The notes below the pieces were generated by a model. It saw only the letters and a program-made list of their open reading frames with translations. It searched no databases and was not told the origin of the DNA. This document shows, piece after piece, positions 7,178 through 37,878 of a DNA stretch of 43,611 bases. The stretch spans positions 1 through 43,611 of the IMG/VR virus record IMGVR_UViG_3300031673_000130; one strand, written 5' to 3'. Each line of letters begins with the position of its first letter. Position 1 is the first letter of the stretch. The DNA is from a virus. Position numbers and translations under genes: made by a program.

Positions 7178-7178
7178 C

Positions 7179-13233: not shown

Positions 13234-16200
13234 CTATTTTCCCCCTTTCATGGCTTCCCGCGCACCTCGTAAGGTGAGCGGTTCTTTTGGTTGTGTAGGT
13301 TCAAATTTGCCTTTCATCCGTGGCGGATTAAACGGAGGAGGCCCCTGGGATCCCTTTGGTTCCTCTTCCATTAATTCCTGTTTTTTATATCTTTGGGTCT
13401 GTTCATAATCCCGGACCATTCTCTCTATCACTACGGCCTTTTCCGCGTTGCTTTGGGATGAGAGGAGGGCCTGTACGTAAGTATGGTTATATTTCCAGGC
13501 CAGAAGTTTTAAGGCGGCGTCAGGTAGAGAATTGGCTTTTGAAGCCAGAGCTTGAACCTCTTCCTTCGAAGGCATTTCACCCTCGAGTAATTTCTCCAGA
13601 CCTTCTCCAGCTGTCAGAGAAATCTCTGCCATAATGCTTTTGACTTCCAGTTTTGCCTCCCGGAGTGTCTCCTGAAGGCCAAGGTCCGTAACCTTGATAA
13701 AACGGCCCACGATGTTGCTGACTATTGGCCATCCCAGGATCTTCTCCAGGTCTGTTTTGATCTGCTCCGGTCTATCGGATCCGAATCGATGAATGACAGA
13801 AAGACCGGCCTGATCACTCAGCCATCTGGCAAAGATTTTATGGGCTCTTTTCCCTCCAGCAAGCATGATCTGTTCAGGAATAACGTACCTACTCCGAAAC
13901 GCATCATAAGGGTTTTTCCCGCAAGCATACGACACGACAGCTCCGATAAGGTTTATCATGGGATGCAGGGTAGGAGCCTGGCCTGCGAGGTAGTCCAGGA
14001 GCGCACTCCACCATTTAAACTTTTCCCTATTGAGTAGTTTCCAGAAAACTCCCCCTATAAGTCGGCCTGTTTCATCTTGGGGTACCCTGAGGACAACCGC
14101 TTTTCCGCTAGGAGTAATGCCAATGGGAACAATGTCATAATTTGTGCCGTCATAGCTTGATACCCGGTCCATAATTTGCTTTGTTTTCCATCCCAGGAAA
14201 CCGAGAGCAGCTCCAAACATCAAGAGTTTTGGCAAAAGGTAATATTTTGCAACCTTCCAGGCGATTTCTGCCGGTCTTTTTCTGGCTACTTCAAAGTCTC
14301 CCCTCCAGCCTTCCTTTTGTGCATTAGAGAAGATCCAGAGGTTATTGTAGATAGGAGCTCCGGTACCTTGCCGCAAGAAGGCAGGGGATCCCGCATTTGC
14401 TCTGATAAAATGGCCCTTTTCTCCTGGAGGCATATCCGGGAAGTGTTTTGACAGATAGATATCAGCTGCAAACTTAGGGATTCGTTCGAGTCCTCTTCCT
14501 AAGCCTGAGAGATAGTAAAAGAACGTATGAAAAGGCATGAAGACCTTTGCCTTCCAGATAGAAGGGATAATATTGAAACGCTTCAACATGCGCTCAAGCA
14601 TGAGATCTTCAGGAGCATCGGCCCTGTAATCAGTAACGGAGATAAGAGTCTTGCTTTTAAATGCCCTCTTTGCGAGTTCATCCACTTGGCCAACGACGCT
14701 CCGGAATGCAGGCTTAATTGCTTGCATGTACGACTTAAAAACGTTTACATAGGACCCTCCAGGTAGGTCCCTGGCTAATCTTCGATAGTCCTTTAGAGCA
14801 TTGTAGGCCATAAAACCCGGATTGAGTTCCGTAAAGACCATTTTGAAGGGCCTCACTGTGATCCGCAGGATCTCTGAAAGGAGCCATGCCTCTACGGGGT
14901 TCTTTTGAAATCCCTCTGCCACATAACGAGGTACATAGTATCCATGGGCCTTGCCATCCACCACATCAACGAGGAGACCTTGCTCCGGATCCTTGGGCTC
15001 CACAATCTTGTGAAACTTTCCGCTCCATTGCGTTTTGGCATCATTGATCTCATCGGGGTAGTAGTCCTTGAAAAATTTCACCACAGCTCTGCTTGCAGCG
15101 ACTCTATTGGCTGCCCTCATCATGGCAATGTCTTTGAGAATCGTGGCCGTGAAAGGTGGACCCGTAGGCCTGAGGGTACCTATTTGCCTAAAGACATGCG
15201 CGGATGCTATCCGTCCAAAGTTCTGATCTGCCCACCCCACAATATCAAACGTGGCATAGTTCGGATTTTCCACCATGAATTTGAGGAGCTCCGGACTGTG
15301 CATTTTGAGCTCCCCGAGTTTATCAATCAGCCATTCTTTCCGGACCGCGTTGAATTCATCGGCCATCTTTTTCACTAAAGGAAACTGATCCTGGAGCTCT
15401 TTAAGTTTTGCGCTCGATAGGTCTGAAGTCCATCCAAGAGGATTTGCAAGTTTCGATCTCTCCGTGGAAACTCTCCGATGATAGAGATAGACATCAAGAT
15501 CTCGAGGAGTGAAGTTTTCCTGTTCAAGAGGAAGAAGGATCCGGTTTTTGATATCCGTCAGATACCCTTCGACCTCTGCTCCTGTATGGATCATTTCCTC
15601 TATCTTGTAGCGAGGATTCAGATGATCCGGAATATTGCTCTCGCCTACCTTTTTGACCCGGTTAATCGTAGCGTAATAACGATCGATGAAGGTCATTGCC
15701 CAGGCGTCTTTATTCAGGATATCTTTCCAGCGACTCTTGATAGTTAAGCCATATTCCCTTTCCCTCTTCTCAAAGCCTTCAATTAAACGCCTGTCTCTCT
15801 TCTCCGGATTTGCTCCAAGTTGGATTTCCCTTTGGATCTGATCATAGATTGCCTTCACCCCAGGTTTCCTCTCCAGGTAATTGAAAAAGCCTTCATACCA
15901 ATTCGGAGCAAGGCTTTTTACCAGCTGAGGAGTATTAATCAAGGCGCTGAAGGCATCGGCGTAGAGTTCGACTCCGCTATACCTGTATTTCGTGAAGGCA
16001 GGGTTTTCTCCGGGATCAAAAGGTTTCCAGGCGCGAGAGAGGAGTTTCAATTCGTTCCTCATTTCATCAGCTTCGAATACCCTCAATTTCCTGATTTCTT
16101 CCGCTACCAGCTGCTCGTAGCGTTCTTTTATCTCAAGATCTGAAGGTTTGTATTTGATCTTTTTACCGGTGGGGACCATCACCACTTTTGCAAATCTCTT

Positions 16201-19200
16201 GATTTCATCGGCAACCTGATCTTTGAGGGCCTGCTTTACGATCGCTTTCTTCAATGCGGTATCAAGACCCTTGATATAATCCTCCAGGTCCTTGTTCTTT
16301 GCCGCAGGATCCAGGGAATTCCAGATATTGAGGACGTCCTGGGGGGAGACCGGGAAAGTCTTCTTGATAACCTGATCGATCATCAAATCTTTATTCTCTG
16401 CCTTGAGCATGAGAATGGCTTGTTTCCGGAGCCGGATCCGGTCCTCAGCTGTAAGTTCACCTGAAACTCCCGGAGCCCTGGGAAGAGTCTGTTTCATGTA
16501 TCGCTTGAGGCTTGCAATTCTACCTAGAATATTACCGCGGCTGAGAGTCTTGTCCGGGAGCCAGTCTGCCAGGTGACCAATCTCATGCGAAAGGACGGCC
16601 GCGGCTTCACCGGGATTCTGGAAGATCTCAGCCATCAATTTGATGCGGGGAACTTCTCCACCATGGTAAAAAGCTCCCCTCCATCCTTTGCCTCTCAATC
16701 TCTTCAGTATTGCCGGATATTTGCCTTTTAAGAGGAATTCCGCAATTTCGACTATCTCCGGCATTTCGATTATCTTGGGTAGGTTTGTCGCATATCCGCC
16801 CACATCGGCGGTACCTCGGGGAGGTTTGAAAATTGGAGGGATCTCATGTTTCACGTGAAATGTGGCATAGCCGCCTACGTCCGCATAGCCGGCCTTACCA
16901 GCCATCTTGATAGCGGGAATATGTTTTTCTCCTGTGTAGGCAAGAGAAGAGAGCATTCCTACAGGTTCGCCTTTAACATAGGCAATCAAAAGAGGAGTCG
17001 CGTCCTTTCCTTCCCCCTTGAACCCTATCTTATAAGTTGCCTCCGGATAACGGTTCCTGATCACGTTAAACTTCAGCATGTCAAAGGCTCGTCTGCGCTT
17101 TCCTACCTTGAAAATAACCTGGTTCCCGACTCCTCTTCCGGTCTCTCCAAGAATAGCAATCGGTTCCTTTGAGATCCCGATATCCCCTTCTGGTGATGTG
17201 GTGGAATAATAGCGCAGACTGGCCGGTTCTTGTCCCGGTACCTCCAGGTGTTCTTTTAGAGCCTCCCACGTAACAACTCTCCCAGGTAACATGCGGGTAT
17301 GCGGAGGCGTCCCTTTCACTGCTAGATGACCATCCGTAAACCATCCCTTACCGCCGTCTTCAATCTCGAAAAGTTCTCCTACCAGTTCTCTCTTGCCGGC
17401 TGAGGGTTTAGGCAGGGATGCCTTTGTGGGTTTTCTTCTGGCTTTGAGAAACGGTGCGCCTAGACCTTTTATGGCCTTCTTGAAGGCCTCCAGATCTTGT
17501 TTTATGGCCGTAGTCCCCAAGGTTGGAACTATATAGGTGGTACCTGAAGGAAGGACAAATTTTACTTTCCCTTGTGGTTTTTCCATATCGTGAAGCATTT
17601 CCGGAGCATTTCTTATGGCTTCGTCAACGGCCTCTCTGAGCAATTCTTCTTGTTCTTTAAGACTAAGTTTCTCGTCTGGCCTGATATGAAAGACCTGCGC
17701 GAATTCGGGGGCTTCTTCGGGTTCTTCTTCGGTTTTTCCTTTAGTGACTTCAGGGGGAAGTTCTTTAGGCTTTTCCAGTCCTGGCCTTCTCAATCCGGTT
17801 GCCTTTGTCAAACGTCCTATTTCACCGCCAATGCCTCTTACGGTCTCTTCAGTAACGTCTTTGATTGCCCAGGATCCCCCGGCTGCAATGGCTTCACGTT
17901 TGGCAAGGAAACTCTTGTAGTAAGGATCGTCTTTTCCCACGGTCTCCGCCATGCGCGCGAGGGACTTATCCATTCTGGCAAGAACAGCCTTCCTTTCCTC
18001 TTCTGTGGGAGGAGGACCTTGACCCTCAGATCTGGCTTGCCGCAAAGCTGCCCCTTGAGCTTCCTGGAAGGTAGCCTTTGCCATGATAGCTCTATTAAAC
18101 ACGCTCCAATATGGACCCTCTCCATACATTACGGGGAGATTTCGCCACTCTTGCATGGTCACGTCCCAGGGTTCTTTTTGTTTCTCAGCTTCTACTTTAG
18201 GAATTTCTGGCGCTTTTAGGAGTTTGGTAGGAACTTCGGGGGTAGGACCTGCTCCTGGACTTGAGGGTAATCTTTGTTCGGTGGGTTGTTTAATTTTATC
18301 TGCGGGGCGTAGATGTGGCACCTTAACCGGCGGTACAACCTTATGACCTTCCTGCTCCTTGATAACCTTGAGGATGGAGTCAAAATATTCTTCGAGTTCT
18401 TTTCCATCTTCTATCGTTTCGTATTTATAGGTTTTAATGAGATCATCGGCTATTTCATCGGCAACCGTAATCTTCATCTTCCTTATGATGTCAACCTTTA
18501 CGTCATTATTCTTGATCTTAGTGAGGTACTTGTCAAGCTCTTTAGGGTCAACCTCCCGGTCACTGATACGTTGATATATTGATCCAGTGAACTCCTCTTC
18601 TGGCAAAGCTAATATGTCGGCGTACTTTTCGTTGATCCGTTTATCAACGAGGGTCAAGGGGTCTTCGTACTGTTTTCTGGTGATAGCGATGATATCACGA
18701 GCGGGAGGGACTTTTGGGACTCCCTTTAATCCTGGCCCTTCACCACCTTCAATTTGCCTCCCGGTGGAAGTGACTTTAGCCACTCCAGGAGGCTCTTCCC
18801 CCCTGGCTGCCCTGAAACCTGCTTTTTCGCGTTCAACTTTAGCTCTTCTAAGCTGTTCTTCCGCACCTGGTTTTGTTTCGCCAAGTCCATAGGTAATTTC
18901 CACTCCTTTCTTGGTGTATTTCGTTCCATCCGGGGCAGTATATTCCAGGGTTACATTTTCAAGAGATTTACTGGCGCTCTCAATGGCTTGTTCAACGGTC
19001 GCCCTGTCTGGTCCTTGAATGATAAATTCATCCCCACTCATCCGATAAGATAGATGTTTGGCTCCTTTTGTGGGTTTAATCGCTTTTGCAATAGCCTGTA
19101 AGACCTGATCGCCAACATCATGCCCCAGGTTATCATTGATCCATTTTAAAGAATCGGCATCGACATACGCCTGATGTGGCATACGTTCGTCTTCTATATC

Positions 19201-20514
19201 AAATGCTCTTCTATTGCGAAGGCCGGTGAGTTCGTCAGTCAGAAGAATCTCTTGTTGTTCTTCCGGTGTCATTTGCGCGATCTTTTTCCGGAATGCAAGA
19301 TCAGCCCTTCGCTCAGGGCCTTTATAGATTTCGGGTGCTCCTAATTCGATAGGCGGGAGAGGCTCTTCGGGTCCTTTACCCCTTACTGGAGGAGGCTGTA
19401 GAGCTTCTGGAGGGCCTCCTGGAGCATAAGGCTTAGGAGGACCTGGAGGAGGACCATAAACAGGGCCTTGGGGAGTTTCAGGAGGTGGCGCATAGGGGCC
19501 TCTACGTTTTTGGATTTCTTCCGCTCTGAATTTATAAAACTGCTCGGGGTTGCCTCGTAATGCCTTGAGAATTTGAGCATCGGTAAGTCCGCGGCGTTTC
19601 ATATCCTCAATGGTCTGGACTACTAGACCGCGTTCTTTATTTGTAATCTGCCTCCACCAGGTTGAATCTTTGATTAGTTGTCCGATAGGTTTATCAAGCC
19701 ATGGGATTTTCTTGAGCAAGGGGACGGCAATATCTCCGGCCAATTTGAAGGCTGCTGGAGCAAGGGCCCACCCTGCGGTTTCCCCTAAGATCTGAAGACG
19801 TTTTTCCTCTATGCTTGAGCGGTTCCATTCTTCCCGGTCAGTTTCAGAGGCTAGGAATTGACCTCCAGGGATCAGGCTTGCCGCTGCATAACGCATACTC
19901 ATCAAGGTTGGATACCGCTGAAACATTGCCTGCTCTTCTTCCTTGCTCATTTTGTACTTACCCAGGAAGTCCGCGATTGCTTCAAAAGGCTTCTGAAGGT
20001 AGCCGATACCTGCCGGGAGTTCTCCGAATAAGGCATCATGAGCAATCTTGCCGGCGATCTTGATACTTTCCGGGACTTTCTTTGGAAACTCAGGGCCGGT
20101 TACTTCAGGCCTACCTAGATATTCCGGGATCTCTTGAGGAGGGCCTTCCGGACGTTCAAAAATCGGTCCTTTCTTCAGGGATACGCCTGGCTCTAGTCCT
20201 TCTATGCCTTGAAAGGGTCCTGGTTCATATTGAGGGGCCTCTCGGGGTGCTCCGAATTTACCGAACTCGCCCGGGATCTCCTCGCGTTCTCTCATCCGCT
20301 CGAGACGGCCAGGGATCCGCTGCGCTTCTATCGGAATTTGCTTTTCTCCGATGAAGTCATTTTTGAGGGTTTCTTGTTCCTCCGGAGCGAGGGCCTCATA
20401 GTCCGGATCTGGCTCGAGAAAGGTAGTAAAAAAGTCATTCCGGATATCCCATTGTTCCCCCGGATCCCTTGCTTGAAATGATGGGGATTCTTCTATCTCA
20501 GCCCAATTTTCCAT
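13234..20514 (-). CDS. Giant polyvalent ejection-like protein with GGDEF and zincin domains (2426 aa)
   Basis: At 2,426 residues this is a sixth of the genome. Residues 1-330 are helical with Pro-rich stretches; 335-400 is a Pro/Gly linker. Residues about 405-590 form a GGDEF domain: TDELTGLRNRR (426-436), D452, D454, K457, N460 and D469 in the DADSLKWIND...GHDVGD block, then SGDEF (493-497). D469, a position linked to GTP specificity, is retained. HEIGH at 1310-1314, with E1516 in GVELYADAF as a possible third ligand, marks a zincin peptidase. The C-terminus (LNPGFMAYNALKDYRR near 1894) resembles LPD38-type polyvalent-protein regions, with a hydrophobic segment near 2088-2112. Following two smaller internal-virion-like genes, it is probably carried in the head and ejected with DNA. 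Confidence 0.85.
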   Translation of the reverse strand: MENWAEIEESPSFQARDPGEQWDIRNDFFTTFLEPDPDYEALAPEEQETLKNDFIGEKQIPIEAQRIPGRLERMREREEIPGEFGKFGAPREAPQYEPGPFQGIEGLEPGVSLKKGPIFERPEGPPQEIPEYLGRPEVTGPEFPKKVPESIKIAGKIAHDALFGELPAGIGYLQKPFEAIADFLGKYKMSKEEEQAMFQRYPTLMSMRYAAASLIPGGQFLASETDREEWNRSSIEEKRLQILGETAGWALAPAAFKLAGDIAVPLLKKIPWLDKPIGQLIKDSTWWRQITNKERGLVVQTIEDMKRRGLTDAQILKALRGNPEQFYKFRAEEIQKRRGPYAPPPETPQGPVYGPPPGPPKPYAPGGPPEALQPPPVRGKGPEEPLPPIELGAPEIYKGPERRADLAFRKKIAQMTPEEQQEILLTDELTGLRNRRAFDIEDERMPHQAYVDADSLKWINDNLGHDVGDQVLQAIAKAIKPTKGAKHLSYRMSGDEFIIQGPDRATVEQAIESASKSLENVTLEYTAPDGTKYTKKGVEITYGLGETKPGAEEQLRRAKVEREKAGFRAARGEEPPGVAKVTSTGRQIEGGEGPGLKGVPKVPPARDIIAITRKQYEDPLTLVDKRINEKYADILALPEEEFTGSIYQRISDREVDPKELDKYLTKIKNNDVKVDIIRKMKITVADEIADDLIKTYKYETIEDGKELEEYFDSILKVIKEQEGHKVVPPVKVPHLRPADKIKQPTEQRLPSSPGAGPTPEVPTKLLKAPEIPKVEAEKQKEPWDVTMQEWRNLPVMYGEGPYWSVFNRAIMAKATFQEAQGAALRQARSEGQGPPPTEEERKAVLARMDKSLARMAETVGKDDPYYKSFLAKREAIAAGGSWAIKDVTEETVRGIGGEIGRLTKATGLRRPGLEKPKELPPEVTKGKTEEEPEEAPEFAQVFHIRPDEKLSLKEQEELLREAVDEAIRNAPEMLHDMEKPQGKVKFVLPSGTTYIVPTLGTTAIKQDLEAFKKAIKGLGAPFLKARRKPTKASLPKPSAGKRELVGELFEIEDGGKGWFTDGHLAVKGTPPHTRMLPGRVVTWEALKEHLEVPGQEPASLRYYSTTSPEGDIGISKEPIAILGETGRGVGNQVIFKVGKRRRAFDMLKFNVIRNRYPEATYKIGFKGEGKDATPLLIAYVKGEPVGMLSSLAYTGEKHIPAIKMAGKAGYADVGGYATFHVKHEIPPIFKPPRGTADVGGYATNLPKIIEMPEIVEIAEFLLKGKYPAILKRLRGKGWRGAFYHGGEVPRIKLMAEIFQNPGEAAAVLSHEIGHLADWLPDKTLSRGNILGRIASLKRYMKQTLPRAPGVSGELTAEDRIRLRKQAILMLKAENKDLMIDQVIKKTFPVSPQDVLNIWNSLDPAAKNKDLEDYIKGLDTALKKAIVKQALKDQVADEIKRFAKVVMVPTGKKIKYKPSDLEIKERYEQLVAEEIRKLRVFEADEMRNELKLLSRAWKPFDPGENPAFTKYRYSGVELYADAFSALINTPQLVKSLAPNWYEGFFNYLERKPGVKAIYDQIQREIQLGANPEKRDRRLIEGFEKREREYGLTIKSRWKDILNKDAWAMTFIDRYYATINRVKKVGESNIPDHLNPRYKIEEMIHTGAEVEGYLTDIKNRILLPLEQENFTPRDLDVYLYHRRVSTERSKLANPLGWTSDLSSAKLKELQDQFPLVKKMADEFNAVRKEWLIDKLGELKMHSPELLKFMVENPNYATFDIVGWADQNFGRIASAHVFRQIGTLRPTGPPFTATILKDIAMMRAANRVAASRAVVKFFKDYYPDEINDAKTQWSGKFHKIVEPKDPEQGLLVDVVDGKAHGYYVPRYVAEGFQKNPVEAWLLSEILRITVRPFKMVFTELNPGFMAYNALKDYRRLARDLPGGSYVNVFKSYMQAIKPAFRSVVGQVDELAKRAFKSKTLISVTDYRADAPEDLMLERMLKRFNIIPSIWKAKVFMPFHTFFYYLSGLGRGLERIPKFAADIYLSKHFPDMPPGEKGHFIRANAGSPAFLRQGTGAPIYNNLWIFSNAQKEGWRGDFEVARKRPAEIAWKVAKYYLLPKLLMFGAALGFLGWKTKQIMDRVSSYDGTNYDIVPIGITPSGKAVVLRVPQDETGRLIGGVFWKLLNREKFKWWSALLDYLAGQAPTLHPMINLIGAVVSYACGKNPYDAFRSRYVIPEQIMLAGGKRAHKIFARWLSDQAGLSVIHRFGSDRPEQIKTDLEKILGWPIVSNIVGRFIKVTDLGLQETLREAKLEVKSIMAEISLTAGEGLEKLLEGEMPSKEEVQALASKANSLPDAALKLLAWKYNHTYVQALLSSQSNAEKAVVIERMVRDYEQTQRYKKQELMEEEPKGSQGPPPFNPPRMKGKFEPTQPKEPLTLRGAREAMKGGK
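16786..16884 (-). repeat. Duplicated ADVGGYAT coding segment
   Basis: Within the giant gene a 24-bp segment encoding ADVGGYAT occurs twice, at 16861-16884 and 16786-16809, matching at 19 of 24 bases. The differences are scattered, several at third positions, so the copies are diverging under protein-level constraint. The spacer encodes FHVKHEIPPIFKPPRGT and contains the parS-like palindrome. Confidence 0.6.
16847..16862. promoter_or_regulatory. parS-like palindrome inside the giant gene
   Basis: TGTTTCACGTGAAATG matches the well-known chromosomal parS consensus (TGTTTCACGTGAAACA) at 14 of 16 positions and includes the full 12-bp palindrome TTTCACGTGAAA. ParB proteins recognise this site. In the coding frame it specifies FHVKH. 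A chance 14/16 match in 43.6 kb is unlikely, but binding is unproven. Confidence 0.45.
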
Positions 20515-22224: not shown

Positions 22225-22683
22225 TCATGGTTTTTTTCTTCCCCATTTGACCCCGCCAAATTCTTGTTGTCTTTCCTTCTTGGAAAGCCTCCTGGCCCGT
22301 TTGCCACGGAGTTTTTTAGGGGTAAGCATCTGGATCCACTCTTCCACGGTCTTCTTGACCTTCTCCCCTTTCCAGGGGCATTTCTCGCATTCCCACCTTG
22401 TATAGGTGGCAGTCTCTTCACCTTTAGGGTAAAACACCCTTAACCTGAGAGGTTCCCCGCATTTCTCGCATTCCAACCGTTCAAATTCGTCTAAGATCGT
22501 CCTGGGTCTGTTTCCATCAGTCTTGCTCACCAGACGATTAGCCATCTTTTCCACTGCCAAAACTTCCTGATAGAGTTCAAAGGCAATGGTGATGTTCTTC
22601 GTGATATGAGGAATGAAAATCTTTCTGGCTTTTGCAACCGCTTCAAGTCTCTGGTGAAATTCATCTCTATCGAGATCCTTCAT
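22225..22683 (-). CDS. Zinc-ribbon protein between tail and ejection genes (152 aa)
   Basis: The ATG at 22683 is chosen for GGAGG seven bases upstream. A helical N-terminus (residues 1-60) precedes a ribbon: ECEKCGEPL near residue 72 and WECEKCPW near residue 98, a clean two-pair zinc site. The C-terminus is strongly basic (KKLRGKRARRLSKKERQQ), suggesting nucleic-acid contact. Its place in the late operon makes a virion-assembly or DNA-related role possible; no family is recognised. Confidence 0.7.
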   Translation of the reverse strand: MKDLDRDEFHQRLEAVAKARKIFIPHITKNITIAFELYQEVLAVEKMANRLVSKTDGNRPRTILDEFERLECEKCGEPLRLRVFYPKGEETATYTRWECEKCPWKGEKVKKTVEEWIQMLTPKKLRGKRARRLSKKERQQEFGGVKWGRKKP

Positions 22684-23831
22684 AGTAGGGCCTCCGGACA
22701 GCAACCCGCGGTTATCTGTTCTTCTGTTCGACTATCCGGGATCCCTCCTGTCGTAGGACCGAGAGCGGAGCAATCTTCCCAGTGGAGAGTGCAATTACTC
22801 ACCAGATACCAGTCACCACAAGCAACCCCGCCTGAGGAGGTTCTTCCACAAGTTCCAACCGGTTCATAAGTTCCATCACAGTTTAAAAACCTAAAACAGC
22901 TATGACCCCAACTCCCTTGACCAATGAGCGGATTTTCCCTGCATTCAGTAACCGCAGTCGCACAGTTACCTGTGACCACATTTACGGCAATGGTGATCGA
23001 ATCTAATTGCTTCCCCTGGCAACTCAACGTGATAGTCGGATTCTGATCACAATTCGCGTTACTCGATGGAGCCGTGTAGGTGACTCCGTTTCCGGTCGCA
23101 GAGGATAAAGAACCGCCTCCTCCAGTTATCGCCCACTCATAAAGATTTCCATCATGGAGAATTGGACTTGCCCATAAGATCTGCTCCTCATCAATGGCCA
23201 TCTGAAGCGTTGTGTAAGTGATCGAAGCCGTTGCAGGACAGACGTCACAATTAACCAGAATGTCATTCTTACAATAGGAATTTGTCGTTCTTGCGAGGAT
23301 TCTGACCTTCTGATAACTTCCGTCCAGTTCCGCGGTCACTAAACGAAAACAAACTTCCTTTTGATTCCATCTTGTAAGAACTGCCGGGGATCCCGCTAGA
23401 ATTTGAACCTTTGTTATCGTCTCGTATGCCGGGTTAAAGGTGCAACAAACCTCCTCATATCCAGGATTCCCCTTTTGAGCCCTGTCGCATTCCCGGTCAT
23501 GCGTGATGAACATCGGACAGTCCAGGATACAACCGACCCGGTGAATACCTCCCCAGGCACTATCCACGTCAGGGACCGGTCCAGGAAAATCAGGGAAATT
23601 TGGGGTAAAGGCATAAGGATCCGGATAGTATGTTTCCATTTCCTCATAGCTTTCCTCCAGGTATGGCTTTTTGAGCTCCGATTGTTTACCGAGGGCCTGA
23701 TTGAACATGGCCGCATCAGTGACCCTCTTCATTGACTCAATGTAACTGTCTTCCGGACTGGTTATGTATGGCTTTCGTCCATACTCCCTATCTATCGACT
23801 TTGGGGGTCCGCTTCTGGTTTTGGAGGACAT
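22680..23831 (-). CDS. Cys-rich protein with Ig-like region, likely virion-surface (383 aa)
   Basis: More than twenty Cys residues lie in the C-terminal 280 residues, in clusters such as VGCILDCPMF, EVCCTFNPAY, NCDVCPATAS and CTLHWEDCSALG. The stretch YEWAITGGGGSLSSATGNGVTYTAP is typical of bacterial Ig-like repeats, and Gly/Ser/Thr content is high. Such Cys density is unusual for a cytoplasm-assembled phage protein and may signal disulfides formed after lysis or metal binding. The first 43 bases overlap the 54-residue gene; M34 is a possible later start. Position beside the nozzle-like gene suggests a tail-exterior component. Confidence 0.7.
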   Translation of the reverse strand: MSSKTRSGPPKSIDREYGRKPYITSPEDSYIESMKRVTDAAMFNQALGKQSELKKPYLEESYEEMETYYPDPYAFTPNFPDFPGPVPDVDSAWGGIHRVGCILDCPMFITHDRECDRAQKGNPGYEEVCCTFNPAYETITKVQILAGSPAVLTRWNQKEVCFRLVTAELDGSYQKVRILARTTNSYCKNDILVNCDVCPATASITYTTLQMAIDEEQILWASPILHDGNLYEWAITGGGGSLSSATGNGVTYTAPSSNANCDQNPTITLSCQGKQLDSITIAVNVVTGNCATAVTECRENPLIGQGSWGHSCFRFLNCDGTYEPVGTCGRTSSGGVACGDWYLVSNCTLHWEDCSALGPTTGGIPDSRTEEQITAGCCPEALL

Positions 23832-23952
23832 CTTTAGGGTTTACTCCTGGCTTAGGCTTATCCCAAAAGCCTTTCACATTAAGAGGAGGTTCATCTGCAA
23901 TCTTTGTGACTTTAAAGAATTGCCTTTTCCATGGCTTTGTGGCGTCTTTCAT
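23788..23952 (-). CDS. 54-residue basic late protein
   Basis: The frame runs from the ATG at 23952 to TAG at 23788-23790. It reads MKDATKPWKRQFFKVTKIAD, then NVKGFWDKPKPG and NQKRTPKVDR. It fills the gap between the Acb2-like gene and the Cys-rich gene and overlaps both slightly, as is usual in this operon. The ribosome binding site (GAGAGA) is weak. No family is recognised; the composition is basic and Pro-rich. Confidence 0.55.
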   Translation of the reverse strand: MKDATKPWKRQFFKVTKIADEPPLNVKGFWDKPKPGVNPKDVLQNQKRTPKVDR

Positions 23953-24164
23953 GTTTCTCTCTCATTCCTCGCTATCGCGGCGTTTGCCCACATGACCCCT
24001 TCCTCGATCTTCCTGATTGCTTTAGTGAGCTCCGGACTCTCCGGACAGGAGAGGACAAGAAACTCTGCCAGTGCTTTTGCCTGTGTCCTGATTCTCTCAT
24101 ATCTTTGAGCCTGATCCTTTATCGGCTTGTGATATGTGAAAATGTTGTCAAGATCTAAACCCAT
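23949..24164 (-). CDS. acb2: Acb2-like anti-CBASS cyclic-nucleotide sponge (71 aa)
   Basis: The sequence has the hallmarks of the Acb2 family (T4 Vs.4 relatives): FTYHKPIKDQAQRYERIR at residues 9-26, AKALAEF, CPESPE at 40-45, and VMWANAAIARNE at 57-68. Family members are small hexamers that bind cyclic di- and trinucleotides and block CBASS defence. From memory, Tyr11 and Lys26 are key in the characterised protein; here residue 11 is Tyr and 26 is Arg. The start has AAGGAGGTAAGGGC upstream. Being inside the tail-gene cluster is notable, since it would be made late unless an internal promoter exists. Confidence 0.8.
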   Translation of the reverse strand: MGLDLDNIFTYHKPIKDQAQRYERIRTQAKALAEFLVLSCPESPELTKAIRKIEEGVMWANAAIARNERET

Positions 24165-24168
24165 GCCC

Positions 24169-26598
24169 TTACCTCCTTTCCCATACCGACATATTTACTC
24201 CTAGCTCCTCCAGGTACATTTCCTGGCTGGCCGTGTCATGCTGTAACTTGATGCTAATGAGTTGATCCTGGATATTTACGGAAAGCCTGTGGCGCCGTAT
24301 CAGTTGATTTGTGACCTCAGCCACCATGCTCAGGGTCTTGTCTGTGATGAATGCTATTCCGTTTTTGCTTATAGAAAGTTTGATGCTTCCAGCTGCTTGC
24401 GTCTTGCACCGGATCAGTAACTCCCGGAGGCTCAAATATTGGCCGCCTAAGCTAAATTCTTGTTGTGTGTAGGAGTCAATGGCGGTGCTCACATCATTGG
24501 TCCCGTAGTTTAGCTGATAAACCGTACCATCCGCGGTGCCTCCTCCAACCTGGAGGACCGGGACGTTCCCGGAGGCCGCTTCCACTTCTTCTATGCATGA
24601 GAGTGCTTGTCCAAGGACATCAAAGGACCAGGTCTTGTCCAGGAGATCAAAAACCGGGAATACATTCGGGACTGTGGCGGACGATCCGCTGACCAGGCCG
24701 ATCCGGATCACGTTAAATGTGGAGTCATACTTGAGCCACATCTCTGACTCATAACCGCGCCTGATACATTCCGTCTTTGTAGGATCAAAGTAGTTCTGAA
24801 TATCATCACTGATCAGGGACACACTCCTTCCATCACTGACAAAAACACCATGCCTCGATAGGAAGAAAAACAGATCTTTGATTTGCTCTTGATCCCCGAG
24901 CCGGACCAGAACTCCATCGACCACAGCCACGGTTTTATTATTCATCGTGCCGATCCTGGAGGAGAGAACCAGTTTCCCGAAGGTTTCAGGGGAGTATCCT
25001 TCAAAGAGGGTTACGGTCCCCCCTTCAACCCCTTTTTCTTCCTGCCATACGACCATTTCATTGTGGAATTTACGGATTGCGACAGTCTTATGAGCCCTCC
25101 CATCACCAGTTTCCAGGACGCCAAAATCCAGGCCGTTAAGAACCATCGGCTGACCGGTAGCAGAGACATAGAGATATTCAGGATAGAGATTGAAGCTAAG
25201 AACCGCTCTGTCTTTCCAGATACAGTTACATCGGCCCTTTCCGAGCTCTTCAACATCGAAATAAGGCATGGTCTGAATGCCAAGGATGATATCCGCGGAC
25301 AGGGTTTTATCCACTGTGAAGTAGTAGACATAGGCGTAATATTGAGAGGATCTGAACTGGTGCGGTTGTGCGGCTTTTCTGTCAAAACTGACCCATCCGG
25401 CGTTTGAAAGGCCGTTTGTTCCATCGGTCAAAGTGCCTACGGAAGCGAAAGCAGCTCCGTTCCAGTAATACCCTGCGTTGACGGTTGTTGATGCCGTACT
25501 GTTAGGATCCGGGCCCACGTCTATGTAAACAGCCTCGATGGGATCCGCGGATAGGATGATAAGTTTGTCTGAGGAGGTCATTTCCCCGACTTCTACCGAT
25601 CCGGAAGCGTAAAGATCGTAAGTGCCGGCTGAATCGTCATAAAAATAGCATTCGACCGCATCTGCCGGAACTCCATCCCACACATTCATGATATCCTGGA
25701 AAGAAGAGTCGAAAGTGACTCCAGATAGCTCTACCTCGCCGTCCAGTGCTGCTGAGAATCGTATTTGATACCAGTACCCCACTCCTCCATAGGCATATTT
25801 AGGTATGATGTCTGTGGGCTTGGGCTCTGTGAAGGACATCTTCCCCCCGGTTGTAGCTAGGGACGCCCCTCCTGAAGCAGTAGTATCTCCGAATCCGGAG
25901 ACCGCAGTCCAAGCTCCATTGTGATAGTAAATCGAGGCGTCTGAAGCGCTCCCGTTTGGCTTAGGTATGGTGAAGGTGAAAGACTTGGCAGGGACCGGGG
26001 TCTTGATCATCAAACAGTCATGATTTGCATAGGTATCCAGTAAGTCCAGGACCGCTACTGTGGAGGTCTGGCCATCGGAGACCTGATCTGAATAGTCTTC
26101 TCCCTCTGTAGGTACCGCAGGCATGGCCGCGGTACCCTTAAAGACAATGAACTTCTCAACGTAACTCGAGGATCCACCGTAGATTTGATGCTGATCGACT
26201 CCGTCAGAGAAAATCAACTTGTCGGCAATGTTGCCCCAGGCCGCGGGGATCTGGCCGGCGCTCCCGGAATAAACTTCAGATCCGAAGGCTCCGGTTGTGA
26301 CTCCCGGAGGATCCGCGGTAGCTTTGAGGATATCCCCATCCGACATCTGAGCGAAAAAGGCCTCTTCTGATACACGACCTTTCTTGAGCTGATAAAGGGA
26401 AAGGACCTTGTTGGTAGGACCATCAGCCTCAGTATGGAGTTTCCTCTGACCAGGCCTCTTGATAATTCCGGGATGCTTCCCCCTCATATTCTGGACCATG
26501 GAGAAGGCTCCAAACGGCAATGATGCCTTTTCCCGGACAGTAACGGCGCTTCCCTGGAGAGGAATTCCTTTGATCTCTGTCAGTTGTTTCAGTGCCAT
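24169..26598 (-). CDS. Tail nozzle/DNA-stabilisation-like protein (809 aa)
   Basis: The opening (GIPLQGSAVTVREKASLPFG, then MRGKHPGIIKRPGQRKL) and length suit the beta-propeller tail-nozzle proteins of short-tailed phages, such as P22 gp10-type and T7 gp12-type proteins. The middle contains repeated Gly/Asp/Thr-rich beta strands, and the C-terminal third has propeller-like blades (GVFVSDGRSVSLISDDIQNYF). It follows the adaptor gene, as expected for the tail built under the portal. Its ATG lies directly after the adaptor stop (TAAATG). The assignment rests on order, size and style rather than a catalytic motif. Confidence 0.6.
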   Translation of the reverse strand: MALKQLTEIKGIPLQGSAVTVREKASLPFGAFSMVQNMRGKHPGIIKRPGQRKLHTEADGPTNKVLSLYQLKKGRVSEEAFFAQMSDGDILKATADPPGVTTGAFGSEVYSGSAGQIPAAWGNIADKLIFSDGVDQHQIYGGSSSYVEKFIVFKGTAAMPAVPTEGEDYSDQVSDGQTSTVAVLDLLDTYANHDCLMIKTPVPAKSFTFTIPKPNGSASDASIYYHNGAWTAVSGFGDTTASGGASLATTGGKMSFTEPKPTDIIPKYAYGGVGYWYQIRFSAALDGEVELSGVTFDSSFQDIMNVWDGVPADAVECYFYDDSAGTYDLYASGSVEVGEMTSSDKLIILSADPIEAVYIDVGPDPNSTASTTVNAGYYWNGAAFASVGTLTDGTNGLSNAGWVSFDRKAAQPHQFRSSQYYAYVYYFTVDKTLSADIILGIQTMPYFDVEELGKGRCNCIWKDRAVLSFNLYPEYLYVSATGQPMVLNGLDFGVLETGDGRAHKTVAIRKFHNEMVVWQEEKGVEGGTVTLFEGYSPETFGKLVLSSRIGTMNNKTVAVVDGVLVRLGDQEQIKDLFFFLSRHGVFVSDGRSVSLISDDIQNYFDPTKTECIRRGYESEMWLKYDSTFNVIRIGLVSGSSATVPNVFPVFDLLDKTWSFDVLGQALSCIEEVEAASGNVPVLQVGGGTADGTVYQLNYGTNDVSTAIDSYTQQEFSLGGQYLSLRELLIRCKTQAAGSIKLSISKNGIAFITDKTLSMVAEVTNQLIRRHRLSVNIQDQLISIKLQHDTASQEMYLEELGVNMSVWERR

Positions 26599-30236: not shown

Positions 30237-31556
30237 CTAGCTCCAGAGACTCGGTTCGACCAGGTCCTTTAGGACCGTGAGGCAATTCCTCTGCTCTACT
30301 CCCAGGTTGGAATAAAGCCTCAAGAACTGATCCCACTCGTCATAACCAGATCTCCAGTGCATTTGCTGATCCAAGTTCCCCCATCCGATAGCTGCCATTT
30401 CATACTTCTGAATGACTCCGGACGGCTCGAAATACATCTTGTTCGGCTGCGCCACAGGATCTACAACGATCTCTACGGATCCGTCACCCGCGGCAAAGGT
30501 TAAGGTCTCATATCCCCCCCGGAGCTTCGTGGGTGCAAACCGGACGTCCGGCATGAGGAGGTTGGCATACTTTCTGCGCTGGCCAAGACCACACCTGATG
30601 ATGTTCGCTCTCATTCCTGAAGCCGCTCGGGTCAGATCGCAGGCCTGGAGCATGAGCTCCACGGTCAGCTCTCTGTTCACGCTCGAGTTGCCAAGAACGT
30701 TTGCTTTCCACTTGGGATAGGTATCGACAACGATATTCTCAAACGTAGCTATGAGAGTTCCATCATCGTAAATGCCGTCAAGACCGCAGATCTCGTAGGA
30801 GTCGTTGGTTGTTGCATGACTGGCCGCTCGGGTACCCATCTTGACCATATACGCACCGGTAGGAACTGCCTCGGCGACTATAGTATAGCCGGCAAAGGTG
30901 CTGTTCGGGTGGTTGGTCTTGTAGGTCCCATCGTTGAACTCCATTTCCATTGCTTTGGTTGAAGGGTTGATGCTGGAGATCCTCGAGGCCACTGAGGACT
31001 GATCCACAGCGGTACTATCGAAGAAATCAACCAGCATTCCCTCCTGGGCATACATAACCCCCCTGTCGTTGTCGCAGGTGACTGTCCAGGTGGTTGCCGA
31101 TGTGGTGAGCGTATCTGACGCAGCTGAGAGAGTCCCGATCAAGCCGAATCCGTCACCCCAGGTCTGTCTATTCAGATCCACAATCATGCTCTGATAGATG
31201 TCGTCTACCGCATCGGCCAGGCCATCCACAAACGCGGCCATATCTCCCTTAGCCGCTTCGATCATGGGGCCTGTCATGCGGATAACGCCATAGATATACT
31301 TGGGACTGATCCGGCCTTTGTCGTACTTCCCAACCAAAGGATCCGGGAGCTTCTGGCTTTCGCCGCGGGCTCCGGTACCTTGCGCCCTTGCATATCGGAT
31401 AGAGAACTCATATCCCAGGCCTTTAGGCTGTCTTTCGCTCTTCGGGAACTGGTGATATGTGAGAGTCTCATCCTTGAACTGATTCGTGATCCCTTTGCCG
31501 TAAACCAGCTTCAGGGTGTCCGCTATTGCGGTTAAGTCGTGATAATCAATAGTCAT
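30237..31556 (-). CDS. Major capsid protein, HK97-fold-like (439 aa)
   Basis: The start at 31556 follows GGAGGATTAAACC. The N-terminal arm (IADTLKLVYGKGITNQFKDE), an early basic loop (GARGESQKLPDPLVGKY), a helix (PMIEAAKGDMAAFVDGL) and a long beta-rich insert are followed by TRAASGMRANIIRCGLGQRR and a C-terminal GNLDQQMHWRSGYDEWDQF. Size and order (portal, scaffold-like protein, then this gene) identify it as the coat protein. It lacks an obvious cleavage site or protease gene, so assembly likely depends on the separate scaffold. Confidence 0.8.
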   Translation of the reverse strand: MTIDYHDLTAIADTLKLVYGKGITNQFKDETLTYHQFPKSERQPKGLGYEFSIRYARAQGTGARGESQKLPDPLVGKYDKGRISPKYIYGVIRMTGPMIEAAKGDMAAFVDGLADAVDDIYQSMIVDLNRQTWGDGFGLIGTLSAASDTLTTSATTWTVTCDNDRGVMYAQEGMLVDFFDSTAVDQSSVASRISSINPSTKAMEMEFNDGTYKTNHPNSTFAGYTIVAEAVPTGAYMVKMGTRAASHATTNDSYEICGLDGIYDDGTLIATFENIVVDTYPKWKANVLGNSSVNRELTVELMLQACDLTRAASGMRANIIRCGLGQRRKYANLLMPDVRFAPTKLRGGYETLTFAAGDGSVEIVVDPVAQPNKMYFEPSGVIQKYEMAAIGWGNLDQQMHWRSGYDEWDQFLRLYSNLGVEQRNCLTVLKDLVEPSLWS

Positions 31557-31585
31557 TGGTTTAATCCTCCGCAATGAGCGAGAGG

Positions 31586-32863: not shown

Positions 32864-33085
32864 TCATTTATTTGGTCCCTTATAGTTAGAGGGGTCCCTG
32901 TGTGCCTTCTTTACCGCTCTATTGCGTCCCAGGCCCCCCATGCACCGCTGCCAGGCCTCATCCTTGCTAAACCCTTTCTTGAGATATTCGATCACACATT
33001 GATGAGCTCTCAGCGTGTGGATCCCTTTACCATCCGGAGCCGTTAAGCCGGCCTTCCTATACGCTTGTTTGATTCGCTTGCCCAC
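32864..33085 (-). CDS. Small late protein after portal (73 aa)
   Basis: A GTG at 33085 with AGGAGG upstream is chosen over a GTG at 33112 that lacks a ribosome binding site; the gene overlaps the portal end by 29 bases. The product (LTAPDGKGIHTLRAHQCVIEYLKKGFSKDEAWQRC) has one helix pair and a basic tail (AVKKAHRDPSNYKGPNK). No family is recognised. Confidence 0.55.
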   Translation of the reverse strand: MGKRIKQAYRKAGLTAPDGKGIHTLRAHQCVIEYLKKGFSKDEAWQRCMGGLGRNRAVKKAHRDPSNYKGPNK

Positions 33086-35093
33086 CTGGAGCCCCTCCTC
33101 TCGTTGTTTCACCGGCCTCGGCCTGATCTCTGGTCATTGCCATTCCACCTTGGGCCTGCATCTTTGCCTGGATAAACATGAAATGGGTGTCTGTATGTAA
33201 GAGTGTTATGGCCTGGGCTTTGGTAGTAAGTTTGCCGAATTCAGGACTGACAATGAATTTGCGGTGGATCTCGAAATGAATGATATGATCGTCATACTTG
33301 AAAAGCGGATCGTCATTTTGACGCTCTTGCAGGATACTTGCCGGGTTTTCTGGATCCGCTTTGAGAACGAGAATTCCCTCAACGTCCCCCATCTTAAGCC
33401 GGGTATTTTCGAGTTCTGCTCTTTTCACGTCCGGGGAAGTCTTGTCTTTGAATCCTGACAGACCAACTCTTCTGAGGATCTCCATTCTCGTATCCACATC
33501 GTTCTGAAGATCCGGGAAAAGGCCTTGTTCGATCAGATTGATAATTGTTTGCGTCTTGCCGGCCTTTGTGGATCCCACACCTGAATCTAACTCGAGTCGA
33601 ACGTCTGTATTGCCTCTCAGCTGTGCGGCTCTAAAGGCCTTGACCTGGACATCGGAGCCTAGATTTCCGGTCTTGATCATTCTCTCTTCTGTGAAGAGAA
33701 GGGATGCCAGAATAAGGCGCTTTCTGTAAACGCGCTGATAGCTGCGATAGATCCGGGCGATATCGGGTCCATGGCCGGCCTCAGCTGCTTCCTTGAGGAT
33801 ATCGACCATGATCCCGGAGGCTCTTGCTGTGGGTGTTCTTCCCCGCAGGATATTCTTGGGATCCCCGGAGAGATCCTGGATTGTCTCGCGGTGTATGGAG
33901 CGTTCCTTGATCACCTGGTCCGGTAGTGCTATCCCCTGCTGAAACTCAGGCCGGAGCCCAGCGGCCATAAGCGCGTCATATTGCAGTACAAGGAAATGAG
34001 ATCCCTGCTCACTGAGTCTCTTGATCTTGACGTCTGAGGGTGAAAGGACTCGAGTTCTTCCCAGGCCCTTGCGGTTTATGTTGAGGGATTGATCGATTTC
34101 GTTGATAGAGTTCTGAGGGGAGATAAGATCATTGACGCCTGGATCACTCCAGAACCTTCCGGGGACGTAATTGTAATGAAAGTCAGTTAGGCTATAGAAC
34201 CATTTCCCGTTTTCCGCAGGGATAGGCATTTGCTTTGCGTCAACCATGATGGTATCGCCACACTGCGCGACATAACGGCCGTCAGGGTTCGTTTTGGTAG
34301 GTTTGAACTCCGCTTCTTTGAAGACCACCAGATCCTCAGCCTTCATATTGAGAATGCGCGTCTCGAGGCCGGATCCTTTCCAGGGACTCACGTTAGCAAC
34401 CAGGTCCATGAGCATCTGCTGATAATTGATAATGGCCGGATCATCCCCTCCGCTTATCTTTTTGTGGAAGGTATCTTCAACCCACTCCCGGTACTTGAGA
34501 CTCTTCATGGCCACGTAACGTTTACGCTTCAGTCCTTCACCCAGGGGATCCACGATGATATTGAAAGGGATCCATGTCTCAGTGGCGACATCTCCTTCTG
34601 TGATCAACTTCCCGGAAGCATCAAGAAACCATTCACCTCCATCCTTCTCCGCGAAGGTTCTGAGAAAGCCGACACCACACAAGAGGACCCACAGGAGGAC
34701 TCTTTCCTTTTCATCCAGGAAGATAGCCTCATTATCCAGGTCCATTGAGGAGAGAAGATCCGCGCCTAACTCGGAAGATTCTCGGTCCTCCTCGGAGTTA
34801 CTGTTTGGCCAGACTCTAGGAACATAGTTCTTACCCAGGATCAGAGCTTTCATGCTCCGGACGTACTCCCGGATAATGTTGTCGACCGGCGTAGGTTTGA
34901 AGGGGGATCTCCGCGTCTTCTTACGGAAAACGTTCAAAGATACAACCCACTCGAGGTATTGTTCGCCGATGTAATAGAGGATATTGCGGTACCACACCCT
35001 TTCCATCATCTTGCGGATAGGATCCCGGCCTTCATCGAAGATGTGAGTCATTTGCCGCTGTGCGTCCCATTCGTGAAAGTATTTATCTGCCAT
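33057..35093 (-). CDS. Portal protein (678 aa)
   Basis: The start at 35093 follows AGAGGAATTGC. The sequence has the portal traits: an N-terminal stem (RNILYYIGEQYLEWV), VDNIIREYVRSMKALILGKN, WIPFNIIVDPLGEG, GRFWSDPGVNDLISPQNSINE and a long helical C-terminus (IARIYRSYQRVYRKRLILASL). Length and style match P22-type portals of short-tailed phages. It forms the dodecameric DNA gate in the capsid vertex and docks terminase. Immediately upstream is the 10-bp repeat array and terminator region, so this gene begins a separate transcription unit. Confidence 0.85.
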   Translation of the reverse strand: MADKYFHEWDAQRQMTHIFDEGRDPIRKMMERVWYRNILYYIGEQYLEWVVSLNVFRKKTRRSPFKPTPVDNIIREYVRSMKALILGKNYVPRVWPNSNSEEDRESSELGADLLSSMDLDNEAIFLDEKERVLLWVLLCGVGFLRTFAEKDGGEWFLDASGKLITEGDVATETWIPFNIIVDPLGEGLKRKRYVAMKSLKYREWVEDTFHKKISGGDDPAIINYQQMLMDLVANVSPWKGSGLETRILNMKAEDLVVFKEAEFKPTKTNPDGRYVAQCGDTIMVDAKQMPIPAENGKWFYSLTDFHYNYVPGRFWSDPGVNDLISPQNSINEIDQSLNINRKGLGRTRVLSPSDVKIKRLSEQGSHFLVLQYDALMAAGLRPEFQQGIALPDQVIKERSIHRETIQDLSGDPKNILRGRTPTARASGIMVDILKEAAEAGHGPDIARIYRSYQRVYRKRLILASLLFTEERMIKTGNLGSDVQVKAFRAAQLRGNTDVRLELDSGVGSTKAGKTQTIINLIEQGLFPDLQNDVDTRMEILRRVGLSGFKDKTSPDVKRAELENTRLKMGDVEGILVLKADPENPASILQERQNDDPLFKYDDHIIHFEIHRKFIVSPEFGKLTTKAQAITLLHTDTHFMFIQAKMQAQGGMAMTRDQAEAGETTRGGAPGGQANQTSV

Positions 35094-35109
35094 TGCAATT
35101 CCTCTTCTG

Positions 35110-35179
35110 TTTGATCCGGTGTGATCCGGTCTGATACGATCTGACACGTTTTGACACGGTCTGACACCGTTTGTATGAC
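35110..35179. repeat. Seven-unit 10-bp tandem array upstream of portal
   Basis: Units TTTGATCCGG, TGTGATCCGG, TCTGATACGA, TCTGACACGT, TTTGACACGG, TCTGACACCG and TTTGTATGAC follow each other without a gap. Spacing is exactly 10 bp, one helical turn, so equal faces of DNA are presented. The array starts 17 bp upstream of the portal ATG, ahead of its ribosome binding site. It is non-coding in the minus-strand gene direction and has no known match in memory. A multi-site operator, a packaging or origin site are all possible. Confidence 0.7.
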
Positions 35180-35771: not shown

Positions 35772-36041
35772 TCATCCTTGCACTTCAAGGTGCACACAAA
35801 AACTATCCGGTTCCGCTTTCAATTTGCGAAGTTCCCTGTTCAAATCTCGAATAAGGTCCTTAAGCCCTTTTTGGAGGATCTTGATATCATCAGATTCGAC
35901 ATAAACTACATGGATAGCCGTATCTTCGCTTAATGAATGTACCCTCAGTGAGGTTAGTTTCGTTATCGTTTGCCATGAAACTCTAAACCCAGGACTTCCG
36001 TTAAAATAGACATAAATCCGTTTAGGGATAGGTATCACCAT
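35772..36041 (-). CDS. Small alpha/beta protein after terminase (89 aa)
   Basis: The ATG overlaps the terminase end (ATGGTGA), so translation is probably coupled. The sequence (IPKRIYVYFNGSPGFRVSW, then AIHVVYVESDDIKILQKGLK, LIRDLNRELRKLKAE) suggests strands followed by a charged helix. No family is recognised. It belongs to the packaging transcript. Confidence 0.65.
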   Translation of the reverse strand: MVIPIPKRIYVYFNGSPGFRVSWQTITKLTSLRVHSLSEDTAIHVVYVESDDIKILQKGLKDLIRDLNRELRKLKAEPDSFCVHLEVQG

Positions 36042-37702
36042 TGCTCTAACTCCTCATCATCACCCAGGAGTTCTCCGGTCCCCTCATCCATGAACTCCAT
36101 GAAGCCCTCGAGTTCATCCTCTTCTATTTGCTTCATGTGTTCCTTGAGAGCATCGAGCTCCTTCCAGACTGCTATCTGCGCGCCTGTGACTTCACCTTCT
36201 TTTTTTATCTTGAGCCGCGCTTGATCTATGGCCTGCTCTTCATCGAACTGGAAGAAGCGCAACGGTCTGGCCATGAAGATGTGGCAGGCCTCATCGTAAG
36301 GATGATCTTCTTGATCAGTGTCGATATCTTCAATGTTAAGATCATCCTGGCAGAGCGTAGGGATGATCCGGATAAAGTCCCGGCAAGTGTTGTAGACCTG
36401 GACCATCGGAGCGGTGCCGTCTTCAGGAATAACGAGGCGCTCCCGGAATTGCCGGATCTTAAGTTTACGATCGGGATCTCCAGGACGAAGGACAAGATCT
36501 GTGGCGCCAAGTCTCACAGTTCCGTCCTTGCAGGTGTAGCGCAATGATCTAAAGACTGTCGAGGTGGAAGGACCCTGACCTCCTCCTTGATAGTTCGGTT
36601 TCTTGCTGAAGCAATCCGGACCGGCAAAGCGGATAATGTTCTTGCGCTTGTGGATCCCCATCCGTTCCTCACGCTTGAAGATCCCCAGGCCTATAACTGA
36701 ATCTGACAAACGTAAACCCACATTCGGCGTTGTCTTGTCCCATCCGTACCACTCCGCGAATCTGTATAGGCGACCGTCCGCATCTATATGCCACCATCCG
36801 ATTGAGAACGGAGCTCCGTAACCCCAATCAAGCGTCATGTAAATAGGGGAGTACTCCGGCACCGGGAAGGGTACGCAGATATGAGGATCTCCAAAGTTGA
36901 AAGCCTGACCAACAAAGACGTCCCAGTTCCCCTCCAGCCATGCCGCACGAAGAGCAGGATCCCGGATAGATCTCAGGCGTTGCACATACTCGGGATCATT
37001 CTCGATCAGAATCTTATTGTCTTCAAGCCGGCTCTTGATGAAGACTGATACTTCTCCGGACTCAGGATCCCGGAGCACAGTCCCCGGAGGAGCCGGAGCA
37101 ATGAATCTATGTTTGATTATCGAGGACCCAGGGCCCCCAGGGTTCCCGGTCAGGAAGATATGGCAGGGTACCCCATAGGGTGAGCGATTGCAGCCTTTGA
37201 GTTTTTCGAGCAACTGTGCAATGAAGTGGAAGTTCGGCGCCTCATCGATGTCGATCTCGCAATACTGCTGGCCCTGGAAGAAATCCGCCAGATCCAACCT
37301 CATGACGGCCGTCATCATAAATTGCGCGCCATTCGAGAAGCGCACGAAATTGGTCTGCTGGTCCCCGCCGATCCGGACGGCCGGCATTCCTTGTCTGATC
37401 AGGCCATCTATCCGGAGCCGGAGTTCATTGAACTCTTTGAACTTGCGCCTGAGGATCAGGCCGTTCCAGTGGGGCCCATACTTTTCCGCTCCGCGCAGCT
37501 GTCGGCCAACGATCGTGTCAGTCTTTCCTCCACCTCGAGTACCGCCGTAAAAGATAATGGGGACCGGACACGTACCGGCAAACGCTTGAGGTCCTGGCTG
37601 AGGGATCCAGTAAGTGTTGAGATACAGATCCGCGTACTTCTCGCGGAGCGCTTGCTGCGCGCTGAGGGGTACTTTCGCTTGGATATCAGGAATAGGGTTC
37701 AT
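36035..37702 (-). CDS. terL: Large terminase subunit (555 aa)
   Basis: Residues 53-61 hold the Walker A loop GGTRGGGKT and residues 148-155 the Walker B strand CEIDIDEA, forming the packaging ATPase. The nuclease part begins near residue 289 (MTLDWGYGAPFSIGWWHID) with D292 as a probable metal ligand. The coupling region (residues 226-261) includes NDPEYV, DPALRAAWLEGNWD, echoed by the early 119-residue protein. It drives DNA into the prohead and cuts it. The start at 37702 is taken because it overlaps the preceding stop (ATGA). Length (about 500-600) is normal. Confidence 0.92.
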   Translation of the reverse strand: MNPIPDIQAKVPLSAQQALREKYADLYLNTYWIPQPGPQAFAGTCPVPIIFYGGTRGGGKTDTIVGRQLRGAEKYGPHWNGLILRRKFKEFNELRLRIDGLIRQGMPAVRIGGDQQTNFVRFSNGAQFMMTAVMRLDLADFFQGQQYCEIDIDEAPNFHFIAQLLEKLKGCNRSPYGVPCHIFLTGNPGGPGSSIIKHRFIAPAPPGTVLRDPESGEVSVFIKSRLEDNKILIENDPEYVQRLRSIRDPALRAAWLEGNWDVFVGQAFNFGDPHICVPFPVPEYSPIYMTLDWGYGAPFSIGWWHIDADGRLYRFAEWYGWDKTTPNVGLRLSDSVIGLGIFKREERMGIHKRKNIIRFAGPDCFSKKPNYQGGGQGPSTSTVFRSLRYTCKDGTVRLGATDLVLRPGDPDRKLKIRQFRERLVIPEDGTAPMVQVYNTCRDFIRIIPTLCQDDLNIEDIDTDQEDHPYDEACHIFMARPLRFFQFDEEQAIDQARLKIKKEGEVTGAQIAVWKELDALKEHMKQIEEDELEGFMEFMDEGTGELLGDDEELEQW

Positions 37703-37878
37703 TCTGATTCCTTGAATTCTCCGCACCAGTCCGGGGCATGGACAAGAGGCCATCCGTTCCCAGGAGGAAAACGCCGACAATTCCCGAAAACATAAGGGAC
37801 GATCTCTCGAGTGTCAGGGTCAATCGTGTTACCCTCTTCCCGGTTAAAAAAGTAATAGCAGCCTTCACACGTCTTCAT
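37699..37878 (-). CDS. 59-residue Cys-rich protein, paralogue of the 37865 gene
   Basis: The frame runs from ATG (37878) to TGA overlapping the terminase start. It reads CEGCYYFFNRE, GNCRRFPPGNGWPLV and PDWCGEFK. The arrangement C-x2-C, then NCRR.P, WP.V and DWCGE.K is shared with the C-terminal half of the neighbouring 133-residue protein. Four Cys could bind one metal or an iron-sulfur centre. It overlaps both neighbours by a few bases. The role is unknown; position just before terL suggests packaging. Confidence 0.75.
   Translation of the reverse strand: MKTCEGCYYFFNREEGNTIDPDTREIVPYVFGNCRRFPPGNGWPLVHAPDWCGEFKESE

Follow-up and report, generated by a model that had tools for sequence, protein, structure and literature searches.

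The window analysed here, the whole 43,611-nucleotide stretch of virus record IMGVR_UViG_3300031673_000130, carries a single copy of an acb2-like gene. The gene adds a member to the known Acb2 family, and it sits at a late-module position of a kind that recurs among relatives. Its product is very probably a stand-alone sponge of the Acb2 type, which would hold cyclic oligonucleotide alarm signals and delay effector-driven cell death until lysis. The features on which the analysis draws are the following.

7143–8246, plus strand: integrase (phrog_1, 6e-58)
22680–23831, minus strand: Cys-rich gene of 383 aa in the same late operon (open reading frame and tblastn relatives)
23788–23952, minus strand: 54-aa gene downstream of the acb2-like gene (tblastn to L082, L085, L086, L088, L103, L110 and L111)
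23949–24164, minus strand: acb2-like gene, 71 aa, Acb2/Tad1 hairpin protein (PF24729, phrog_1454, AlphaFold2, Foldseek)
24171–24179, minus strand: Shine-Dalgarno site AAAGGAGGT, overlapping the nozzle-gene stop (direct reading)
24169–26598, minus strand: upstream tail nozzle-like gene, 809 aa (AlphaFold2 pLDDT 81.6; Foldseek; 32 viral-contig relatives)
26599–27468, minus strand: late gene of 289 aa that precedes the nozzle gene (tblastn, 34–46% identity in relatives)
30237–31574, minus strand: major head protein (phrog_14242, 5e-33)
33057–35147, minus strand: P22-like portal protein (PF16510, 1.4e-6; phrog_156)
36035–37780, minus strand: terminase large subunit (phrog_979, 9.9e-21; phrog_2, 1.1e-19)

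The acb2-like reading frame runs from an ATG to a TGA and translates as MGLDLDNIFTYHKPIKDQAQRYERIRTQAKALAEFLVLSCPESPELTKAIRKIEEGVMWANAAIARNERET. A preliminary description had claimed that this 71-residue protein keeps the Acb2 pattern, and every motif that it quoted is found in the reading frame. The protein matches PF24729 (Acb2_Tad1_hairpin) with 57.4 bits (1.7e-15), well above the curated cut-off of 27 bits, its residues 10–66 covering positions 1–58 of the 58-position profile, and it matches phrog_1454 at 2.3e-21. The same PF24729 model recovers the experimentally proven T4 Vs.4 (70.3 bits) and PaP2 Acb2 (65.3 bits) in their own genomes. Relatives were found in 122 records of a phage collection, and a scan of viral contigs confirmed 142, the best 80 of which were retained. 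Across 41 aligned sequences, ten positions are invariant (H12, R26, E45, A49, W59, A60, N61, A62, A63 and A65). Given the two family matches, the 142 relatives and the invariant residues, the match is not a chance one. The earlier assignment to Acb2, which hinged on an HMM or structural match, holds on PF24729, AlphaFold2 and Foldseek.

No PADLOC or NCBIfam model matches the protein. A single-sequence phmmer search of the PDB returned ribosomal-protein noise only, so a profile search was required. With the clade profile, the best PDB match is “Acb2 homolog 43” (9ptq, 76 aa), aligned over profile positions 10–67 of 69 at a modest similarity (7.7e-5), followed by Tad1 hairpins (5e-3) and then Vs.4 (E 0.5). 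Profile comparison with PaP2 Acb2, taken as a single sequence, fell below significance.

The AlphaFold2 monomer model, built with 41 aligned sequences as input, has a pLDDT of 94.4 and places helices at residues 5–8, 18–39 and 44–67, that is, a short N-terminal helix and a two-helix hairpin. This layout agrees with the published Acb2 protomer, which comprises one short N-terminal helix and two long antiparallel helices (PMC12043709). In the PDB, the three top Foldseek matches are all T4 Vs.4 with cGAMP, with probabilities of 0.97, 0.97 and 0.82 and weak E-values of 0.2–0.3; the match to 7uq2 has a probability of 0.97 but an E-value of 0.2. PaP2 Acb2 appears further down the list, and E-values to solved Acb2 structures span 0.2–6, which is weak; a two-helix hairpin is a small, simple fold. 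Among the predicted viral proteins of BFVD the best E-value is 2.5e-5, and the named top matches are nearly all Acb2/Tad1 hairpin proteins. By analogy with solved Acb2, the protein would oligomerise as a hexamer, and pockets between protomers could hold CBASS-type cyclic di- and/or trinucleotides. With these signals sequestered, CBASS effectors would not kill the cell ahead of lysis.

Tad1, the Thoeris anti-defence protein 1, has a helical hairpin whose C-terminal part (SREN.CALTHVEEALMWMN) is shared with the window protein. It also has an N-terminal β-sheet domain (PMC12043709). This domain is missing from the window protein, whose 71 residues are modelled as all-helical with zero strands, and membership of Tad1 is thereby ruled out.

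The anti-CBASS 2 proteins Acb2 of Pseudomonas phage PaP2 and Vs.4 of T4 resemble the window protein in their PF24729 match, in the short N-terminal helix and helical hairpin and in being stand-alone small phage proteins, and they share with it a pocket tyrosine and a basic residue at the position of PaP2 K26, which is R26 here. At 88–93 aa both are longer than the window protein, which has a shorter hairpin, belongs to a YHxP / VMWANAAIARNE clade and carries Arg at the T4 T68 position. The ligand-pocket tyrosine expected of an Acb2 protein is Y11, which is aligned to T4 Y8 and PaP2 Y11 by the MAFFT multiple alignment only, in its N-terminal part; Tyr is present in 72/76 relatives. In T4 Acb2, the Y8A substitution is binding-deficient (PMC12657230).

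Two other conserved positions differ. Position 51 is Arg in the window protein and Thr in T4 (T68), in PaP2 and in 65/76 relatives, an equivalence on which MAFFT and hhalign agree. The remaining 11 of the 76 also lack Thr, so this residue is not family-defining; three other relatives (L005, L014 and L020) likewise have Arg. Position 44 is Pro in the window protein and Arg in 67/76 relatives. T68M reportedly lowers binding by T4 Acb2 (PMC12657230), so the affinity or specificity of the window protein may differ, a reading at residue level that draws on that study and the alignments.

The protein might be a sponge of the same fold that chiefly binds something other than a CBASS dinucleotide: the hairpin and tyrosine would be retained, and the changes at residues 44 and 51 would redirect it to, for example, cyclic trinucleotides (cA3) or another signal. 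The molecule cA3 is also used by type III CRISPR. We consider such a shift possible though doubtful. The replacement of a widely kept Thr by R51 and of Arg by P44 speaks for it, as do the better scores that the clade profile gives to Tad1 hairpins than to Vs.4 and the reported variation in binding spectrum among Acb2 homologs (PMC12043709). Against it, both the pocket tyrosine and a basic residue at 26 are conserved, the N-terminal β domain of Tad1 type is absent, and R51 recurs in three other members of a broadly conserved clade. Sponge function of the Acb2 type is likely, and the ligand preference of the window protein is not to be assumed.

The tail assignment of the upstream neighbour, made earlier from the sequence, is borne out by its predicted fold: Foldseek matches the model to the cyanophage A4 portal-tail complex (1.3e-16) and also to SU10 and PhiM1 tail proteins, P22 gp10 and the T7 gp12 nozzle. 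The 289-aa gene beyond it is possibly a tail adaptor, as judged from its position. Only 4 nt separate the stop of the nozzle gene from the acb2 start, and the acb2 stop overlaps the start of the 54-aa gene by 4 nt. The strong Shine-Dalgarno site noted previously is read directly 6 nt before the ATG. Placement between the nozzle-like and Cys-rich genes was right on the nozzle side; on the other side the 54-aa reading frame intervenes, and the Cys-rich gene is not the direct neighbour. Between ∼30 kb and 8.5 kb the late genes overlap or lie at most 43 nt apart, and the junctions support the claimed membership of acb2 in the late-strand cluster. The late genes include one for a 2426-aa protein (13234–20514, minus strand). 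Its residues ∼400–580 are similar to genes of Pseudomonas phages that carry a GGDEF diguanylate cyclase annotation, and its residues 1230–2298 resemble a protein of Pelagibacter phage Baldr.

At the junction of the nozzle gene and acb2 no terminator-like site was found, and no promoter-like site lies near the acb2 start; the nearest, on the same strand, is ∼1.1 kb upstream (25313–25286). The scan accepted 9-of-12 matches, with phage-specific promoters outside its reach, and returned 3 sites in 7.2 kb versus 7.1 expected in shuffles, which is fewer than expected. Transcription from an internal promoter within the nozzle gene, which would make acb2 a normal early anti-defence gene, could draw on the site at 25313–25286, but the shortage of such sites overall and the 4 nt that separate acb2 from the upstream gene make this quite improbable. 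Because of the 4-nt gap, the 4-nt overlap, the Shine-Dalgarno site inside the upstream gene and the absence of promoter-like sites close to the acb2 start, the simplest reading is late co-expression of acb2 with the virion genes. The preliminary description had left a choice between late action and an internal promoter; the junctions and the promoter scan favour the former.

The window phage is temperate, with an integrase and with exonuclease VIII-like and RecT-like genes. Acb2 is reported to act on induction and not in the maintained lysogen (PMC12043709), which fits the late operon of a temperate phage. Since it would be translated from late virion mRNA, the acb2-like protein would reach a high level during assembly and be off in the quiet lysogen. 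Capsid mutations reportedly help a phage to escape CBASS (PMC10419184), and a late sponge would be consistent with both observations.

The gene is extra cargo, added at the boundary of the nozzle gene and the 54-aa gene. We compared the post-nozzle slot across 32 viral contigs with a nozzle-gene relative. Two of them break off so near the junction that it cannot be read; wherever it can be read, the slot lacks acb2. In several of the relatives nothing intervenes between the nozzle gene and the 54-aa gene. The region past the nozzle gene is a cargo site, its gene content varying from one relative to the next. By eye, this cargo includes methyltransferase- and glycosyltransferase-like reading frames and long fibre-like ones (L083, L085, L088, L089, L109 and L110), and the slot may accommodate host-interaction genes. 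Several of the same phages carry an acb2 homolog elsewhere: homologs occur in the whole records of L088, L110 and L111 (apparently a single type of phage), of L114 and of L090, and further ones in L014 and L021, with which terminase or head genes are shared. The homolog lies 0.6 kb after the terminase gene and before the portal gene in L132 (the record of L110), directly after the terminase gene in L021 and upstream of it in L014 and L133 (the record of L114). Thus acb2 occupies at least three late-module sites within one phage group.

These comparisons bear on a further reading, in which an Acb2-fold protein has been co-opted as a part of the virion or for tail assembly, which would account for its place among tail genes. 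Such a role agrees with its location in a morphogenesis operon that has almost no gaps, and many relatives adjoin terminase or portal genes. However, relatives with the same nozzle gene have the slot without acb2, so the gene is not needed for assembly; other acb2 relatives lie in replication regions, and the pocket residues are conserved. We regard a structural role as very unlikely and rejected it on the relatives that lack the gene after the nozzle.

An acb2-type gene among virion genes is not peculiar to the window phage. The validated T4 and PaP2 acb2 genes are outside virion operons, T4 vs.4 being grouped with vs/regB genes and PaP2 acb2 sharing the strand of the replication genes, whereas the window gene is in a late tail operon. 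Placement in a late cluster had been described as unusual; this did not hold up, in that many relatives in the clade adjoin terminase or portal genes. Among proteins encoded on the same strand beside acb2 in the viral contigs, the commonest PHROG is the terminase large subunit, and portal, minor head and neck proteins are also present. Terminase could be placed in 28 records (27 by phrog_2, L021 by tblastn), in 26 of which it shares a strand with acb2, 19 of these with the two genes at most 5 kb apart. In records of at least 30 kb, acb2 is less than 5 kb from terminase in 10/16, versus 3.1 expected at random (P ∼1e-4, uncorrected for relatedness).

GenBank genomes provide individual cases. The acb2-clade gene directly follows the portal gene in Gordonia phages ChisanaKitsune (gp20) and ScarletRaider, is gene 1, before terminase, in Mycobacterium phage Whitty (gp1), and is gene 5, before portal, in Slarp; other members of the clade are in replication regions. 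ChisanaKitsune gp20 and Whitty gp1 share both clade and late-module placement with the window gene, which follows a nozzle gene instead, and the phages are unrelated. The clade is thus tied to the packaging and structural module, a statistical association of modest interest. A bolder version would make the YHxP / VMWANAAIARNE clade a branch that acts late, is retained near terminase, portal or tail genes and counters signals set off by virion assembly, with its Arg-51 members binding a different ligand set than known Acb2 proteins do; we think this rather unlikely as a whole.

The search for anti-defence genes usually focuses on early regions. The tie of this clade to packaging and structural genes means that surveys limited to early regions would miss such sponges. 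It also raises the question of whether a sponge made late comes in time to block CBASS; if so, CBASS would fire late, at virion assembly.

Several observations concern individual relatives. The ChisanaKitsune genome (MZ820089.1) holds three PF24729 matches, two of them above the cut-off, and its acb2 gene, right after portal, is beside an RNA ligase gene and a VIP2-like ADP-ribosyltransferase gene. In Bacteriophage Lily (L147, KP296792.1), the acb2-clade gene is flanked by a serine recombinase on one side and a HicAB-like pair on the other. Acb2/Tad1 hairpin genes of Brevibacillus and Paenibacillus phages (KT151955.1, JENST_90; MH460826.1, HEATH_54; KT361654-7) are labelled “putative phosphomannomutase” in GenBank, which looks like a misannotation.
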